Source: Flavobacterium sp. CG_23.5 (GTDB lineage: Bacteria; Bacteroidota; Bacteroidia; Flavobacteriales; Flavobacteriaceae). From it: 64,000 nucleotides of DNA. This document shows positions 5,388 through 48,737 of this stretch, piece by piece. A model generated the notes under the pieces. That model did not search any database and had not been told where the DNA came from. It saw nothing but the letters and a program-made list of their open reading frames with translations. The stretch is from NCBI RefSeq assembly GCF_017875765.1, contig NZ_JAGGNA010000001.1:2011001-2075000 (forward strand). Reading direction: 5' to 3'. Numbering within the stretch: position 1 is the stretch's first letter; every line of letters begins with the position of its first letter. The translations under genes were made by a program, and so were the position numbers.

Positions 5388-5468
5388 CCCTAGCCCAGAT
5401 GGAAACGGCATCCTTTTACTTTTTGATTAAAAAAGAAAAAGATATAGTGAACAGCTGGAAATAGCTCC
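5388..5468 (+). ncRNA. Structured repeat element, copy A (Flavo-1-like)
   Basis: Begins CCCTAGCCC-GATGG and ends GGAAATAGCTCC. Between them is an A/T-rich hairpin, ATCCTTTTACTTTTT against AAAAAGAAAAAGAT. Two other copies (minus-strand 10047-10146 and plus-strand 48651-48737) share TAGCC..GAT, ATCCTTTT, AAAAGA and AGC(A/T)GGAAATAGCT(C/T)C, while their hairpin arms differ in sequence but still pair. This copy follows the GT2 gene on the same strand. It resembles a widespread flavobacterial intergenic element, possibly the Flavo-1 RNA motif; I cannot run the covariance model. Confidence 0.6.
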
Positions 5469-6436: not shown

Positions 6437-6934
6437 ATGGATTTACTGCTTTTGACTTTAGGTTTTATGTGCATGATTTTAGGAGTTTTTGGGAGTTTTT
6501 TGCCGGTTCTACCTGGCCCAAGCATTAGTTGGATTGGGTTGGTTTTGCTTTATTTCACCAATGCCATTGCAGCAAATTATTGGATTTTAGGAATAACTTT
6601 ATTGATTACTATTATTATTTCTGTGTTGGATTATGTGATTCCGGCCAAAGGCACTAAAAAATTTGGTGGAAGCTCATATGGAATTTGGGGAACTAATATT
6701 GGTCTAATCATTGGGATTTTGGCTCCTATTCCTTTCGGATTTATAATTGGACCTTTTGTCGGTGCCTTTGTGGGTGAACTAATTTATTCTAAAAACCATA
6801 AACAGGCTTTTAAAGCTGCAACAGGTTCATTTTTGGGCTTCCTAGCTTCTACGTTCATGAAATTTTTAGTTTGTATGATGTATTTGGGATTGTTTCTGGG
6901 AATTGTCTGGCAATATAAGCTGGAGTTGTTTTAA
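6437..6934 (+). CDS. DUF456 domain-containing membrane protein
   Basis: A 165-residue membrane protein matching the DUF456 family. The N-terminal GVFGSFLPVLPGPSISWIGLVLLYF and the glycine-rich central part (KKFGGSSYGIWGTNIGLIIGI) followed by GFIIGPFVGAFVGELIY are typical. About five membrane segments. Function unknown; family members contain glycine-zipper-like repeats. It is transcribed towards the minus-strand tRNA-Asp/GIY-YIG region. Confidence 0.85.
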   Translation: MDLLLLTLGFMCMILGVFGSFLPVLPGPSISWIGLVLLYFTNAIAANYWILGITLLITIIISVLDYVIPAKGTKKFGGSSYGIWGTNIGLIIGILAPIPFGFIIGPFVGAFVGELIYSKNHKQAFKAATGSFLGFLASTFMKFLVCMMYLGLFLGIVWQYKLELF

Positions 6935-6948
6935 ATATAGCAACTGAA

Positions 6949-6977
6949 AAAGCCTTTCCTTCGAAAGACTTTTTTAT
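6949..6977 (-). terminator. Terminator-like hairpin at the end of the tRNA-Asp locus
   Basis: Read on the minus strand, AAGTCTTTCGAAGGAAAGGCTTTTT folds into a hairpin followed by T residues. It is a variant of the GCCTTTCGTAACAGAAAGGC terminator found after each of the other tRNA-like units (7327, 7711, 8300). Confidence 0.55.
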
Positions 6978-6982
6978 ACTAG

Positions 6983-7059
6983 TCTCATTTTTGGAACGAG
7001 AGGACTCGAACCCGTCTCGTCCCAAAAGACGAGATGACATGCACGTATTTTAACCAAGG
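6983..7059 (-). pseudogene. tRNA-Asp-derived fragment (a)
   Basis: Minus-strand reading gives a D-arm/anticodon remnant (GGTTAAAATACGTGCATGTCATC), then a 7-bp hairpin TCTCGTC-TTTTGG-GACGAGA, then the T-arm sequence GGGTTCGAGTCC and TCTCGTTCC. The 5' acceptor strand is missing; its place is taken by the 3' end of the first GIY-YIG gene. It cannot form a normal cloverleaf. Confidence 0.6.
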
Positions 7060-7298
7060 AGAAAATCCCTTAACAACCTCTCTATCGAAGCGACATTCAA
7101 CTTTTTCAATCGCAATTCCTCTTTCAAAGCTAATGTTTTCGTTTCAAATTCTTTAAAATAAACCAAAACCCATGGACCTCTACCTGATGTATATCTGCTC
7201 AAGCTATTATTATGTTCAAAAACACGTTTTTCAACATCTTGAGTAAATCCTTTATAAAATATACCTTGCTCATTTTTAATTATATAAACGAAATACAT
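7050..7298 (-). CDS. GIY-YIG nuclease family protein, copy 1
   Basis: 82 residues from the ATG at 7298 (MYFVYIIKN). The GIY-YIG core is visible: VYIIKN, then FYKGFT, then an Arg-containing helix (EKRVFEHN) and a conserved KEELRLKK helix. Such single-domain proteins are small endonuclease-like proteins with unclear roles. A longer frame exists upstream, but those codons are the terminator hairpin of the adjacent tRNA-like unit, so the inner ATG is preferred. It differs at about 9 of 79 positions from the second copy at 7446, so the two arose by recent duplication. Its stop codon lies in a degenerate tRNA-Asp D-arm. Confidence 0.75.
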   Translation of the reverse strand: MYFVYIIKNEQGIFYKGFTQDVEKRVFEHNNSLSRYTSGRGPWVLVYFKEFETKTLALKEELRLKKLNVASIERLLRDFLLG

Positions 7299-7326
7299 AG
7301 CGGTGCTGATTAAAATTATTAAATAC

Positions 7327-7360
7327 AAAAAAAGCCTTTCTGTTACGAAAGGCTTTCCCA
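7327..7360 (-). terminator. Terminator after tRNA-like fragment (b)
   Basis: On the minus strand, AAAGCCTTTCGTAACAGAAAGGCTTTTTTT is a perfect-stem hairpin followed by a T run. It is the same hairpin that follows both intact tRNA-Asp genes. Confidence 0.8.
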
Positions 7361-7368
7361 AATATTAG

Positions 7369-7444
7369 TCTCGTTTTTGGAACGAGAGGACTCGAACCCG
7401 TCTCGTCCCAAAAGACGAGATGACAGGCAGGTATGCTAACCAAC
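7369..7444 (-). pseudogene. tRNA-Asp-derived fragment (b)
   Basis: Minus strand: AGTTGGTTAGCATACCTGCC (D-arm and 5' anticodon arm), TGTCATC, hairpin TCTCGTC/GACGAGA, T-arm GGGTTCGAGTCC, then TCTCGTTCC-AAAAA-CGAGA. The 5' acceptor strand and the start of the D-loop are replaced by the 3' end of GIY-YIG copy 2, whose TGA ends 4-5 bases before the tRNA homology. Not a functional tRNA. Confidence 0.65.
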
Positions 7445-7445
7445 T

Positions 7446-7685
7446 TCAAAAATTATTTAACAACCTTTCTATCGAAGCAACATTCAATTTTTTCAATCGC
7501 ACTTCCTCTTTTAAAGCTAATGTTTTAGTTTCAAATTCTTTAAAATAAACCAAAACCCATGGACCTTTACCTGATGTGTACCTGCTAAAGCCATTATTAT
7601 GTTCAAAAATACGTTTCTCAATATCTTGAGTGAATCCTTTATAAAATATACCTTGTCCATTTTTAATTATATAAACAAAATACAT
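7446..7685 (-). CDS. GIY-YIG nuclease family protein, copy 2
   Basis: 79 residues from the ATG at 7685. It is nearly identical to copy 1 (MYFVYIIKNGQGIFYKGFTQ..., KEEVRLKKLNVASIERLL). The open frame extends upstream through the tRNA-Asp T-arm and terminator, which is not coding. It lies between the terminator of the intact tRNA-Asp (7755-7828) and tRNA-like fragment (b). The arrangement tRNA, terminator, GIY-YIG ORF is repeated twice, which suggests the ORF was duplicated together with a tRNA unit. Confidence 0.75.
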   Translation of the reverse strand: MYFVYIIKNGQGIFYKGFTQDIEKRIFEHNNGFSRYTSGKGPWVLVYFKEFETKTLALKEEVRLKKLNVASIERLLNNF

Positions 7686-7710
7686 AGCACTGCTGATTAA
7701 AATTATTAAA

Positions 7711-7745
7711 CACAAAAAAACCTTTCTGTTACGAAAGGCTTTCCC
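7711..7745 (-). terminator. Terminator of tRNA-Asp copy 1
   Basis: Minus-strand GGGGAAAGCCTTTCGTAACAGAAAGGTTTTTTT: the stem AAAGCCTTTC/GAAAGG(T)TTT is followed by T residues, about 10 bases after the tRNA 3' end. Confidence 0.8.
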
Positions 7746-7754
7746 CAATATTAG

Positions 7755-7828
7755 CGGTCTGGACGGGACTCGAACCCGCGACCCCATGCGTGACAGGCAT
7801 GTATTCTAACCAACTGAACTACCAAACC
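7755..7828 (-). tRNA. tRNA-Asp (GTC), copy 1
   Basis: A 74-nt cloverleaf: acceptor GGTTTGG pairs with CCAGACC (one G-U), D-arm AGTTCAGTTGGTTAGAAT, anticodon arm CATGC-CTGTCAC-GCATG with anticodon GTC, T-arm GCGGG-TTCGAGT-CCCGT, discriminator G. CCA is not encoded. Identical to the copy at 8340. A terminator follows. Confidence 0.95.
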
Positions 7829-7872
7829 AATATTTTTAATCTATAACAATCTAATTCTGAACTCCCGATTTA

Positions 7873-7942
7873 GACTCGAACCCGTCTCGTCCCAAAAGAC
7901 GAGATGACAGGCATGTATTCTAACCAACTGAACTACCAAACC
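7873..7942 (-). pseudogene. Degenerate tRNA-Asp (c)
   Basis: The 5' half matches tRNA-Asp exactly (GGTTTGGTAGTTCAGTTGG..., CATGCCTGTCA). After the anticodon loop the 3' half is replaced by TCTCGTCTTTTGGGACGAGA plus CGGGTTCGAGTC and then unrelated bases, so neither the anticodon stem nor the acceptor stem can close. Confidence 0.7.
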
Positions 7943-7985
7943 AATATTTTAATCCATAACAATCTAATTCTGAACTCCCGATTTG

Positions 7986-8055
7986 GACTCGAACCCGTCT
8001 CGTCCCAAAAGACGAGATAACAGGCATGTATTCTAACCAACTGAACTACCGAACC
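7986..8055 (-). pseudogene. Degenerate tRNA-Asp (d), anticodon position reads GTT
   Basis: Same build as copy (c), but the acceptor 5' strand is GGTTCGG and the anticodon loop reads CTGTTAT, so the anticodon position is GTT instead of GTC. The 3' half carries the same hairpin replacement. Not expected to be charged or processed as a normal tRNA. Confidence 0.65.
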
Positions 8056-8074
8056 TGCTGTTTTATTGCGGTGG

Positions 8075-8082
8075 CAAAGATA
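8075..8082 (-). promoter_or_regulatory. TATCTTTG -7 element before the tandem tRNA-Asp units
   Basis: On the minus strand TATCTTTG (TAnnTTTG) lies about 20 bases before copy (d). The ~30 bp around it (GGAAATCTATTGTATCTTTG) duplicate the promoter region of the second tRNA-Asp. No TTG at the right distance is seen. Confidence 0.5.
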
Positions 8083-8299
8083 CAATAGATTTCCATTTAT
8101 ACACAGATAAGATGCAAAATCTTCACCCAAATGTTATATAACAAAATATCCAACTTCTTTAAATCAAAAAAGCCATCCGTAGGTTCTAAATAAATTTAGA
8201 AACATTGGAAAGCTTTTCATTGGTCTAACTACTAAACCCGGTCAGCTTACAAGACTGACCAAAACAACACAACTAGCTTTAGATACCTTTTATGGGGCA
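8083..8299. other. Intergenic stretch between the two tRNA-Asp units
   Basis: No coding or RNA gene is recognised. There is a small hairpin GGTCAG...CTGACC near 8240-8262. The rest is AT-rich and may be decayed sequence left from the duplication of the tRNA locus. Confidence 0.4.
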
Positions 8300-8333
8300 A
8301 AAAAGCCTTTCTGTTACGAAAGGCTTTCCCCAA
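8300..8333 (-). terminator. Terminator of tRNA-Asp copy 2
   Basis: Minus-strand GGGGAAAGCCTTTCGTAACAGAAAGGCTTTTTT is a strong stem-loop with a T tail directly after the tRNA. Confidence 0.85.
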
Positions 8334-8339
8334 TATTAG

Positions 8340-8413
8340 CGGTCTGGACGGGACTCGAACCCGCGACCCCATGCGTGACAGGCATGTATTCTAACCAACT
8401 GAACTACCAAACC
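8340..8413 (-). tRNA. tRNA-Asp (GTC), copy 2
   Basis: Identical over its length to the copy at 7755-7828, with acceptor GGTTTGG/CCAGACC, anticodon GTC in CTGTCAC and an intact T-arm. It has its own promoter (8433-8462) and terminator (8300-8333), so it is an independent transcription unit. Confidence 0.95.
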
Positions 8414-8432
8414 TGCTGCTTTATTGCGGTGG

Positions 8433-8462
8433 CAAAGATACAATAGATTTCCGTTTACGCAA
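8433..8462 (-). promoter_or_regulatory. Sigma-A-type promoter of tRNA-Asp copy 2
   Basis: On the minus strand TTG (8462-8460), 19 bases, then TATCTTTG (8440-8433). This fits the flavobacterial consensus and lies about 20 bases before the mature tRNA 5' end. Confidence 0.75.
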
Positions 8463-8500: not shown

Positions 8501-9427
8501 TTATCCAAAGTTTTGTTTTTCAACTAAGTATGTCGTTAAAATATTTTCAAAACTTTCGCCAACACTCACCGGAATGTACTTTATTCTGTTTTGCGCACAA
8601 GTTAATGCTAGTTTTCTAAAATATTTTTCGGTCTGTTTTTCGTATTCCTGTTTCACATTATCGGCAAAAATAGCCACTTCTTCTCCAGTTTCCACATCAA
8701 TAAACTTCCTTGGAGCATTATCAAAATCAAAATTCAGTTCCGTTTTGTTATCAACCACATGGAATAAAACCACTTTATGCTTATTATGTTTCAAATGTTG
8801 TAAGGCATTAAACAGCGCTTCTTCTTTCCCAGACTGAAACATATCCGTAAACAAAATAATCATGGAACGACGGTGAATCTTTTCTGCGATTTGATGTAAA
8901 AAGGTAATTGTATCGGTACTTTTTTTAGTTGTTGGTTTTTCCAATAAGTTTTCAAGGGCATTCAATATCATTCGATGGTGACGATCACTGCCTTTTTCAG
9001 GAGCGTAATACTCATAAGTGTCCGAAAACACGCTTAGTCCTATCGCATCGCGTTGCTTCTTTAACAAATTCATTAAAACCGCCGAAGCCAAAACGGAGAA
9101 ACCTATTTTGTTTTCAAAAAAAGCTTGCTTGTCTTTTAATTTGGGATAATGCATCGAGGAGGAATTGTCAATAATAATATGACAACGCAAATTCGTCTCT
9201 TCTTCAAAACGTTTGGTGTACAAGCGATCAGTCTTTGCAAACAATTTCCAATCGATATGCTTGGTACTTTCTCCTACGTTATAGACTTTGTGCTCGGCAA
9301 ATTCAGCCGAAAACCCATGAAACGGACTTTTATGCATCCCCGAAATAAAACCTTCCACCACCTGATTGGCTAGCAATTCCAAATGCTGAAAGCTGGAAAT
9401 TTTCTCTATTTGCGATTCGATCTTCAT
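8501..9427 (-). CDS. DUF58 domain-containing protein (vWA-like)
   Basis: 308 residues. The N-terminal HKSPFHGFSAEFAEHKVYNVGESTKHIDWKLFAKTDRLYTKRFEEE is the DUF58 signature, followed by a von Willebrand A-like domain starting at HIIIDNSSSMHYP (DxSxS metal-site motif). DUF58 proteins usually stand next to MoxR AAA+ ATPases and Batl/BatA-type genes, but none is in the window; thioredoxin lies upstream and tRNA-Asp downstream. Cytoplasmic, no signal peptide. The role is likely in protein complex maturation or envelope stress, by analogy only. Confidence 0.88.
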   Translation of the reverse strand: MKIESQIEKISSFQHLELLANQVVEGFISGMHKSPFHGFSAEFAEHKVYNVGESTKHIDWKLFAKTDRLYTKRFEEETNLRCHIIIDNSSSMHYPKLKDKQAFFENKIGFSVLASAVLMNLLKKQRDAIGLSVFSDTYEYYAPEKGSDRHHRMILNALENLLEKPTTKKSTDTITFLHQIAEKIHRRSMIILFTDMFQSGKEEALFNALQHLKHNKHKVVLFHVVDNKTELNFDFDNAPRKFIDVETGEEVAIFADNVKQEYEKQTEKYFRKLALTCAQNRIKYIPVSVGESFENILTTYLVEKQNFG

Positions 9428-28874: not shown

Positions 28875-28923
28875 CACCCTTAATTAATAGAGGTCGAGTA
28901 CCTCAAAATTTAATCACAAGATT

Positions 28924-48650: not shown

Positions 48651-48737
48651 CCCTAGCCCTGATTGCAATGAAAATCCTTTTTATCTCGTTCTCAAAACGA
48701 GATAAAAAGATTGCAATAAAAAGCAGGAAATAGCTCC
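48651..48737 (+). ncRNA. Structured repeat element, copy B (Flavo-1-like)
   Basis: Begins CCCTAGCCCTGATTGCAAT and ends AGCAGGAAATAGCTCC. The central hairpin CTTTTTATCTCGTT/AACGAGATAAAAAG is 14 bp, and an outer GCAAT/ATTGC pair encloses it. The ends match the copy at 5388 base for base over CCCTAGCCC.GAT and GGAAATAGCTCC. It lies after transpeptidase 3 and its terminator on the same strand. Confidence 0.6.

Follow-up and report, generated by a model that had tools for sequence, protein, structure and literature searches.

Tandem GIY-YIG nuclease cassettes with hairpin-interrupted tRNA-Asp fragments in Flavobacterium sp. CG_23.5, and a candidate homing-type family on tRNA genes of Bacteroidota

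The locus examined here is an array of transfer RNA (tRNA) genes, tRNA fragments and small GIY-YIG nuclease open reading frames (ORFs) in a window of 64,000 nucleotides (nt) from Flavobacterium sp. CG_23.5. Coordinates are positions in this window, and the array and its neighbours lie on the minus strand unless marked otherwise. Read in that direction, the locus opens with a first intact tRNA-Asp(gtc) at 8339-8413 (ARAGORN; Rfam 66.4 bits), its terminator-like hairpin at 8299-8327 (a repeat copy) and a conserved small RNA (sRNA)-like sequence at 8161-8274. The promoter region of the first tRNA-Asp, along with the 5' part of the gene, is then repeated (8020-8099; repeat D4, 96% over 80 nt) and leads into the first of two damaged tRNA-Asp copies (7984-8055 and 7871-7942; sequence and repeat search), each of which retains a complete 5' part, a palindrome and a T-arm. 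A second intact tRNA-Asp(gtc) (7754-7828; ARAGORN) and its terminator-like hairpin (7714-7745) are followed by two cassettes, one comprising GIY-YIG ORF 1 (7446-7685, 79 amino acids), a tRNA-Asp 3' fragment that we number 3 (7369-7445) and a terminator-like hairpin (7328-7359), the other comprising ORF 2 (7050-7298, 82 amino acids), whose stop codon falls within tRNA D-loop sequence, 3' fragment 4 (6983-7057) and a last terminator-like hairpin (6946-6975, from sequence and fold). An initial annotation made from the sequence alone had described this order, including the additional intact tRNA-Asp upstream, and every element that it named was located in the window. Among the hairpins that it called terminators, those at 7714-7745 and 7328-7359 were returned by a terminator scan, and those at 8299-8327 and 6946-6975 were seen in the sequence and are absent from the scan list. 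The two ORFs, described there as differing at about 9 of 79 residues, are 89% identical by measurement, and both are GIY-YIG domains by Pfam (PF01541, E 6.1e-13 and 1.4e-13).

A feature that had been missed is a 20-nt palindrome, TCTCGTCTTTTGGGACGAGA, one copy of which sits in each of the four damaged tRNA copies and substitutes for tRNA positions 39-50. Pattern search places it at 7998-8017 and 7885-7904 in damaged copies 1 and 2, and it recurs at 7401-7420 in fragment 3 and 7015-7034 in fragment 4. These four matches in the window compare with 0 in 100 shuffles, and the genome as a whole holds 18 occurrences within 3 mismatches as against 0 in the control. The hairpin type of the window is TCTCGTC..GACGAGA. 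Each of the two ORFs is followed by a fragment that begins in the D-arm, and both of these ORF-linked fragments carry a second, related palindrome 3' of the T-arm, at 7369-7387 (also listed as terminator-like) and, in imperfect form, at 6983-7001. The palindrome pair of each fragment is predicted to fold as one long hairpin that encloses the T-arm (z -2.6 and -5.6).

The cassette ORFs, at about 80 amino acids, hold little beyond the GIY-YIG domain itself. Residues Y5, Y15, G17, R25 and E61 are invariant in 23 diverse members, and the conserved tyrosines, arginine and glutamate of such domains have catalytic roles in the active site. The AlphaFold2 model of ORF 1 (predicted local distance difference test, pLDDT, 95.2) is a bare GIY-YIG domain that is nearest to UPF0213 and SLX1, with 1zg2 as its best match (E 1.9e-14 by sequence; Foldseek 5e-5 by fold) and 1ywl and 6seh as further matches. 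This resemblance in sequence and fold implies no function, and we know of no linkage of UPF0213 or SLX1-type domains to tRNA genes. The cassette ORFs are under purifying selection: ORF 1 and ORF 2 differ by a nonsynonymous divergence (dN) of 0.054 and a synonymous divergence (dS) of 0.291, and the median dN/dS is 0.135 in 30 tandem pairs (including repeated loci and one pair from a tRNA-free clade) and 0.10 in 285 between-locus pairs, with no pair at or above 1. At two loci (L046 and L091), a similar GIY-YIG domain lies inside far longer open frames of 640 and 440 amino acids and is not stand-alone.

The same genome contains five GIY-YIG matches at E 1e-3, and two of these form a second locus that the initial annotation had also overlooked. 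There, two GIY-YIG ORFs lie 50 and 428 base pairs (bp) after a tRNA-Leu(taa), and behind each of them come a tRNA-Leu 3' fragment, in which a 16-nt palindrome is present, and then a copy of the tRNA-Leu terminator. The tRNA-Leu and tRNA-Asp loci are unrelated in sequence and identical in layout. The fifth match (L003) is without a tRNA and, by eye, lies amid long inverted repeats.

This layout extends to ten tRNA kinds across 61 genomes of the genus (the window's own included), 48 of which hold a relative of ORF 1 at E 1e-3 and 38 a tRNA-type relative at E 1e-20. The tRNA-type nuclease is thus patchy, with none at E 1e-20 in 23 of the 61. At genus loci with an upstream tRNA, the first ORF mostly begins 36-70 bp after the intact tRNA, and arrays consist of 2-6 similar units of about 350-390 bp each. 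A profile found 143 ORFs at the listed loci of these genomes; 69 ORFs of the genus lacked a tRNA match, with limits of 500 bp on the upstream and 300 bp on the downstream side. On a tree of 129 of the 143 (ORFs shorter than 75 amino acids and two long fusions being left out), 11 labels, namely the ten tRNA kinds and none, need 10 changes, which is the minimum possible, as compared with a mean of 63.4 for shuffled labels, where 0 of 200 shuffles came as low as 10. Single groupings in this tree are not firm, given its few columns and its 43 open forks (Pro alone needs two changes), and near-copies inflate the clustering of labels. Moreover, Lys(ttt) fragment hits were labelled Val where an upstream intact tRNA was absent, and two loci (L027 and L028) were set to Asp despite a cassette that follows the sRNA-like gene behind tRNA-Asp. 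As a side observation, L044 carries units of about 110 bp made of a tRNA-Ala fragment and terminator without an ORF, which by eye resemble non-autonomous derivatives.

Beyond the genus, a profile of 23 tRNA-linked proteins matched in 250 of 392 Bacteroidota genomes and in 126 of 178 genera (E 1e-10), and 90 listed loci from this phylum sample were examined (30 from the search output and 60 hand-picked, some of them in the window's genus). A scan for Asp-clade protein patterns in one genome per species (84,980 species) gave a further, named set of 79 loci, in which the nearest six matches (81-85% identical) belong to F. sinopsychrotolerans, F. psychrolimnae, F. sp. 11, F. yafengii, F. petrolei and F. 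limicola, and which extends over Flavobacterium, Chryseobacterium, Chitinophagales, Pedobacter, Paludibacter and others. Loci with less than 350 bp upstream were dropped (10 of 89 phylum and 11 of 77 named loci). A same-strand tRNA 3' end lies within 250 bp upstream in 65 of 79 phylum loci (median 48 bp) and a tRNA in 51 of 66 usable named loci, 48 of these 51 being tRNA-Asp; by arithmetic (60 tRNA genes in 4 Mb), the chance rate for a 250-bp window is about 0.2%. With the limits set at 1600 bp upstream or 150 bp downstream, the counts rise to 73 of 79 and 58 of 66. Some of the misses are intact tRNAs overlapping the ORF end, namely L216 and L222 in the phylum sample and L332, L336 and L337 in the named one. 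Similarity to tRNA-linked seeds determined the ranking of both samples, so these rates hold for that clade and not for all GIY-YIG proteins; the samples also overlap (L173, L176 and L184 repeat L080, L049 and L004, and some contigs are in both the unnamed and the named sets). A few matches in metagenome-assembled genomes from other phyla (L287, L329, L330 and L338) also have a tRNA beside the ORF, possibly through contamination.

The coupling of nuclease clade to tRNA kind is strong throughout the phylum and not perfect. On a tree with one row per locus (160 rows from 375 ORFs, with an intact tRNA required within 1600 bp upstream), 18 tRNA labels need 31 changes, with a minimum of 17 and a shuffled mean of 86.2, and the coupling is therefore accompanied by some switching between tRNA kinds.

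The fragments themselves were compared with the tRNA in front of the ORF. Within the loci examined, some of which were fetched twice, 246 of 375 ORFs have an intact tRNA within 1600 bp upstream, and 203 of 242 ORFs have a piece of their own preceding tRNA within 200 bp after the stop codon at E 1e-3, as against 0 of 242 for shuffled tRNA and 7 of 242 for tRNA of another kind. At a loose E of 0.5, the own tRNA gave 219 matches, shuffled tRNA 29 and another kind 105 (of 242). Among the 23 ORFs without any piece of their own tRNA are L027 and L028, which by eye are followed by a hairpin-bearing piece of the sRNA-like gene, as if that gene had been affected in place of the tRNA. The junction within the D-loop, reported by the initial annotation, holds for both ORFs of the window and is not general, since over 206 fragments (weak matches included) the tRNA match that follows the ORF starts anywhere from tRNA position 1 to 81, and in 85 of the 206 it begins inside the ORF. 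Most ORF-linked fragments lack the 5' acceptor strand and would be unable to fold as a tRNA.

The interruption of these fragments by hairpins is widespread. In total, 181 breaks are filled with 8-60 nt, and 164 of them contain a perfect hairpin arm of at least 6 bp; the best perfect arm averages 7.1 bp, compared with 3.7 bp after shuffling. Among 132 distinct locus-hairpin pairs with arms of at least 6 bp, 48 start with TCCCG, 28 with TCTCG and 11 with TTCCG, and pyrimidines followed by CG form the start in 95. The TCCCG-start hairpins span 11 tRNA labels, with TCCCGA..TCGGGA as the main type. Over the breaks as a whole, the place of the hairpin is largely the same within a tRNA kind: 56-62 in 6 of 6 for Phe, 71-75 in 4 of 4 for Leu (two units that were both fetched twice), between 25-28 and 42-46 in 11 of 13 for Ala, and 38-51 in 36 of 76 for Asp, where most others lie nearby or in the T-loop; it is variable in Gly and Asn. 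For tRNA-Asp, 45 rows have the hairpin in the anticodon or variable region and 9 in the T-loop, and this difference needs one change on the nuclease tree, as compared with 8.6 in shuffles. Because the two tRNA-Asp hairpin regions split the Asp nucleases into two clades, this observation argues that the hairpin marks the place that the nuclease reads. For Val, 13 of 15 hairpins fall in one class, and the comparison with the tree is hence uninformative.

The related genomes that the initial annotation had proposed to search for empty sites do contain them. The marker of the orthologous locus is the upstream neighbour, a gene that we take to be DUF58-like (8501-9427), which is present in 55 of the 61 genomes, and the right edge is a downstream gene on the plus strand (6437-6934). 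In two close relatives (G006 and G038), with DUF58-like proteins that share 94.5% and 89% identity with that of the window, the downstream gene comes immediately after the first tRNA-Asp and the sRNA-like sequence, and the second tRNA-Asp is missing together with the whole array. A third genome (G026) has the second tRNA-Asp and one hairpin-bearing copy without an ORF before the downstream gene. The arrays of the closest relatives differ in having 1 to 3 ORFs, some of them shortened, and 0 to 3 damaged copies upstream. A GIY-YIG ORF is in reach at at least 3 of 30 DUF58 loci, a lower bound because contigs that end early and split sites (L152 and G027) were scored as lacking one.

We read the window array as belonging to a large, selfish family of homing-type nuclease cassettes on Bacteroidota tRNA genes, a reading about which our judgement is evenly poised. 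The initial annotation had raised homing on tRNA-Asp as one explanation, to be given up if the ORFs stood at unrelated positions away from tRNA sequence or if the array were ancestral without an empty site. Neither outcome was obtained, given the empty sites and the 58 of 66 tRNA-adjacent named loci (3 of the other 8 overlap a tRNA), and homing is the best-supported reading, with a more distant sister clade being without tRNA. From the architecture, the hairpin substitution, the two couplings, the empty sites, the purifying selection and the kept catalytic residues, we infer DNA cutting, the position of the cut, a protective effect of the hairpin against cutting and a spread through repair. 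Specifically, what one nuclease lineage recognises would be a single place in one tRNA gene or in the surroundings of that gene, in most cases its anticodon arm, variable region or T-loop. Breaks at that place would be repaired by recombination with cassette-bearing copies, which would install the ORF beside the tRNA and leave an intact tRNA plus a fragment whose target, interrupted by the hairpin, could no longer be cut, and further breaks and recombination between tRNA and terminator repeats would let the array grow or shrink.

Several points weigh against this reading. An intact copy of the presumed target adjoins the cassettes, and one would therefore expect cuts in the host tRNA gene, barring very low expression or a masked site; the target-derived fragment is hairpin-interrupted, yet the intact copy persists alongside it. 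Low expression behind the tRNA terminator could permit survival in spite of the intact target. The protein of about 80 amino acids is a bare catalytic domain, unlike those homing enzymes that have a separate DNA-binding part. An Rfam check that took in 5 of the 6 phylum misses and 5 of the 8 named ones (L258 and three named loci lying outside it) found no tRNA at L175, L218 and L236 in the phylum sample or at L319 and L327 in the named one. Loci of one tRNA kind often have the same upstream neighbours (in 5 of 6 loci for Asp, 5 of 6 for Ala, 6 of 12 for Val and 3 of 7 for Met), and inheritance in place with frequent loss therefore accounts for part of the pattern. A possible transfer is suggested by one genome (G027), in which the nuclease is 54% identical to the window's and 86% to that of another relative (G045), with the reverse order, 89% and 83%, for the DUF58-like gene; this comparison is made of identity percentages from one draft genome with the two genes on separate contigs. 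Viral contigs scanned with Asp-clade peptide patterns gave no match, and one Val-type protein had no match in phage records and two distant ones, at 38-39% identity, in plasmid records, so that no vehicle of either kind came to light at the sensitivities used. Finally, the number of TCCCGAT..ATCGGGA palindromes dispersed in the genomes does not significantly follow the number of nucleases over the 61 genomes (rho 0.25, p 0.053; per Mb, rho 0.18, p 0.17), and the idea that tRNA-linked nucleases spread these palindromes was retained only in the form of the alternative considered next.

In that alternative, the palindrome is at the centre: the nuclease would act on the TCCCGA..TCGGGA hairpin, as a DNA hairpin or cruciform, in the manner of repetitive extragenic palindromic (REP) sequences and their transposases, and a single mobile system with a preference for sites that form hairpins, tRNA arms among them, would exist both as cassettes and as dispersed palindromes. 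The spread of TCCCG hairpins over 11 tRNA labels agrees with it, as do the presence of TCCCGAT..ATCGGGA in all 61 genomes (912 copies versus 30 in a reversed control, 1 to 107 per genome), its seemingly inserted state at non-tRNA sites (by eye, as at L167 compared with L163 and L170), the sister-clade ORFs amid long inverted repeats at L003 and six other loci, and the nearness of the fold to UPF0213 and to SLX1, a structure-specific nuclease. The lack of a significant correlation in number speaks against it, as does G005, which has 53 palindromes and is free of the nuclease at E 1e-20; by itself it also leaves one tRNA kind per nuclease clade unexplained, and we consider it unlikely, though not negligible. 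A broader proposal can be put forward only tentatively, with doubt outweighing belief, namely that the ~80-residue, isotype-specific GIY-YIG protein and the shared TCCCGA..TCGGGA hairpin, as insertion signature and recognition element at once, define a new minimal class of mobile element in Bacteroidota and perhaps beyond, uniting the cassettes, the dispersed palindromes and the tRNA-free clade. Plain tandem duplication, which the initial annotation favoured, does occur: arrays of 2-6 units, ORF-less remnants (L044, by eye) and shared upstream neighbours fit a passive course in which a GIY-YIG gene next to repeats of tRNA and terminator was copied through recombination between these repeats, its product acting elsewhere in the cell, and recombination and inheritance in place are both active. 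Such a course accounts for array growth, not for the coupling or the hairpins; because the nuclease clades match tRNA kinds, the hairpin position is clade-specific and ten tRNA kinds are involved in one genus, it is not the whole cause. As the whole story it is already hard to hold, and we would be rather surprised if it were correct.

An action on RNA is improbable in our estimate. The nuclease would then cleave the matching tRNA as a toxin or in defence, with the hairpin-bearing fragments serving as decoy or antitoxin RNAs, and one would point to hairpins that substitute arms and loops exposed in the tRNA, to nuclease clades that match tRNA kinds, and to the terminator copies 3' of the fragments in the loci read. 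Against this, SLX1, the nearest relative of known activity, cuts DNA (by its entry titles), the ORF-linked fragments mostly lack the acceptor strand that a tRNA fold needs, and the presence of the nuclease is patchy, with 23 of 61 genomes devoid of it at E 1e-20. Since tRNA genes are common integration sites, the nuclease might also guard them by cutting incoming DNA, such as phages and integrative elements, that bears the tRNA gene in question, and both the purifying selection and the failure to find the one Val-type protein searched in phage records are compatible with such a role. Such cutting would not spare the intact tRNA gene of the host, though, and the units read consist of a single ORF with no protecting gene within, which makes this the most remote of the explanations and a very improbable one.

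The homing-type reading also has to be set beside known systems. Genomic islands that integrate at tRNA genes keep an intact tRNA and leave a partial 3' copy on the far side, as the cassettes do; the cassette units read are without an integrase gene, measure about 350-390 bp and have a hairpin-interrupted partial copy. The double-hairpin elements of fungal mitochondria are small mobile hairpins in structured RNA genes, like the cassette hairpins, and to our knowledge they are not associated with a nuclease gene or tRNA fragments. SLX1, to judge from entry titles, works with SLX4 on branched DNA. REP sequences with their REP-associated tyrosine transposases are described, in the parts of the papers covered, as short dispersed palindromes with a small gene that may move them (PMC2817692, PMC3116915, PMC8266576). 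That enzyme is a tyrosine (HUH) transposase, unlike the GIY-YIG protein of the cassettes, and the cassette palindromes lie inside tRNA fragments at nuclease-specific positions, with a link to the dispersed copies being unproven.

The closest precedent is SegB, a free-standing GIY-YIG homing endonuclease of T4-like phages, whose cuts, in the portions of the source covered, were mapped inside tRNA genes, with the motif RAWTSGAAC at 23 of 83 cut sites (PMC13096335). By our own reading, this motif is the reverse complement of the T-loop. The same portions describe a tandem amplification of tRNA and segB that requires nuclease activity and phage recombination genes, and they report no favoured tRNA isotype (PMC13096335). 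SegB may thus serve, by analogy, as a tested precedent for tRNA-gene cutting with recombination-dependent amplification, and it resembles the Bacteroidota cassettes in being a GIY-YIG nuclease near tRNA genes. As far as that partial account goes, SegB is phage-borne and without isotype preference, whereas the cassettes are in bacterial genomes, largely keep to one tRNA kind per clade and carry hairpin scars; hairpin-interrupted tRNA fragments are unmentioned in the parts of the SegB paper covered (PMC13096335). SegB, known here by description, would also have a C-terminal part beyond the catalytic domain, as suggested by a truncated variant in the same parts (PMC13096335), which the cassette ORFs do not. 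Since phages are already known to have homing nucleases at tRNA genes, the cassettes are not a wholly new kind; what is new, as far as we could find, is an isotype-bound family in bacterial genomes together with hairpin-scarred tRNA fragments. The arrangement was not found described in the full-text literature searched (titles and starts of abstracts), a search whose scope excludes most subscription papers and all preprints and which is no proof of absence.

If the homing-type reading is true, tRNA genes across much of the phylum would be the habitat of hidden, gene-drive-like nucleases, and the principle known from SegB, in which breaks in tRNA genes lead to local amplification, would be carried from phages to bacterial chromosomes. 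The odd tRNA pseudogenes and tandem arrays of these genomes would be accounted for, the common short palindromes of Flavobacterium would gain a concrete candidate mover, and a collection of small nucleases, every one of them linked to a single tRNA gene and a single site in it, would become available for studying how a bare GIY-YIG domain reads sequence.

Further observations concern the palindromes and the tRNA-free clade. The window's hairpin type, TCTCGTC..GACGAGA, occurs in 18 of the 61 genus genomes, with 12 matches (some nested) in the own genome versus 1 in the control. In the own genome, a TCTCGTC..CACGAGA palindrome (L012, C1:476464-476483) lies inside what we take to be the RNase P RNA gene, and this palindrome, or a variant close to it, tips longer hairpin repeats (L011, L014, L016, L018, L019, L021 and L022; nested). 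At L167, compared by eye with L163, L164 and L170, two TCCCGA..TCGGGA palindromes apparently replace a few intergenic bases 5' of the second tRNA-Asp, suggesting a recent insertion. The sister clade (L003, L030, L032, L034, L035, L040 and L052) consists of GIY-YIG ORFs of about 95-115 amino acids that are free of tRNA and, by eye, are surrounded by numerous long repeats, the prevailing type being the inverted GTCACTTCGAGTG..TATCGAGAAC, with another type at L030, and it may, with its repeats, form a separate repeat-and-nuclease system.

The sRNA-like sequence between the first tRNA-Asp and the array, also missed by the initial annotation, was recognised by eye at 30 orthologous loci (L141-L170), where it consists of AGTTGTGTTGTTT..GGTTTAGTAGTTAGACCAATGAAAAGCTTTCC and a terminator-like hairpin at its end and stands directly 3' of the first tRNA-Asp. 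Its first hairpin is variable in sequence and by eye appears paired in all of them. Neither this sequence nor the tRNA fragments had an Rfam match at the gathering score, and permissive matches below the cut-off were discarded as chance. Elsewhere in the window, Rfam families are represented by Flavo-1 RNAs (RF01705) at 5388-5465 and 48651-48734, both on the plus strand, and by an S16 leader (RF03138) at 28883-28914.

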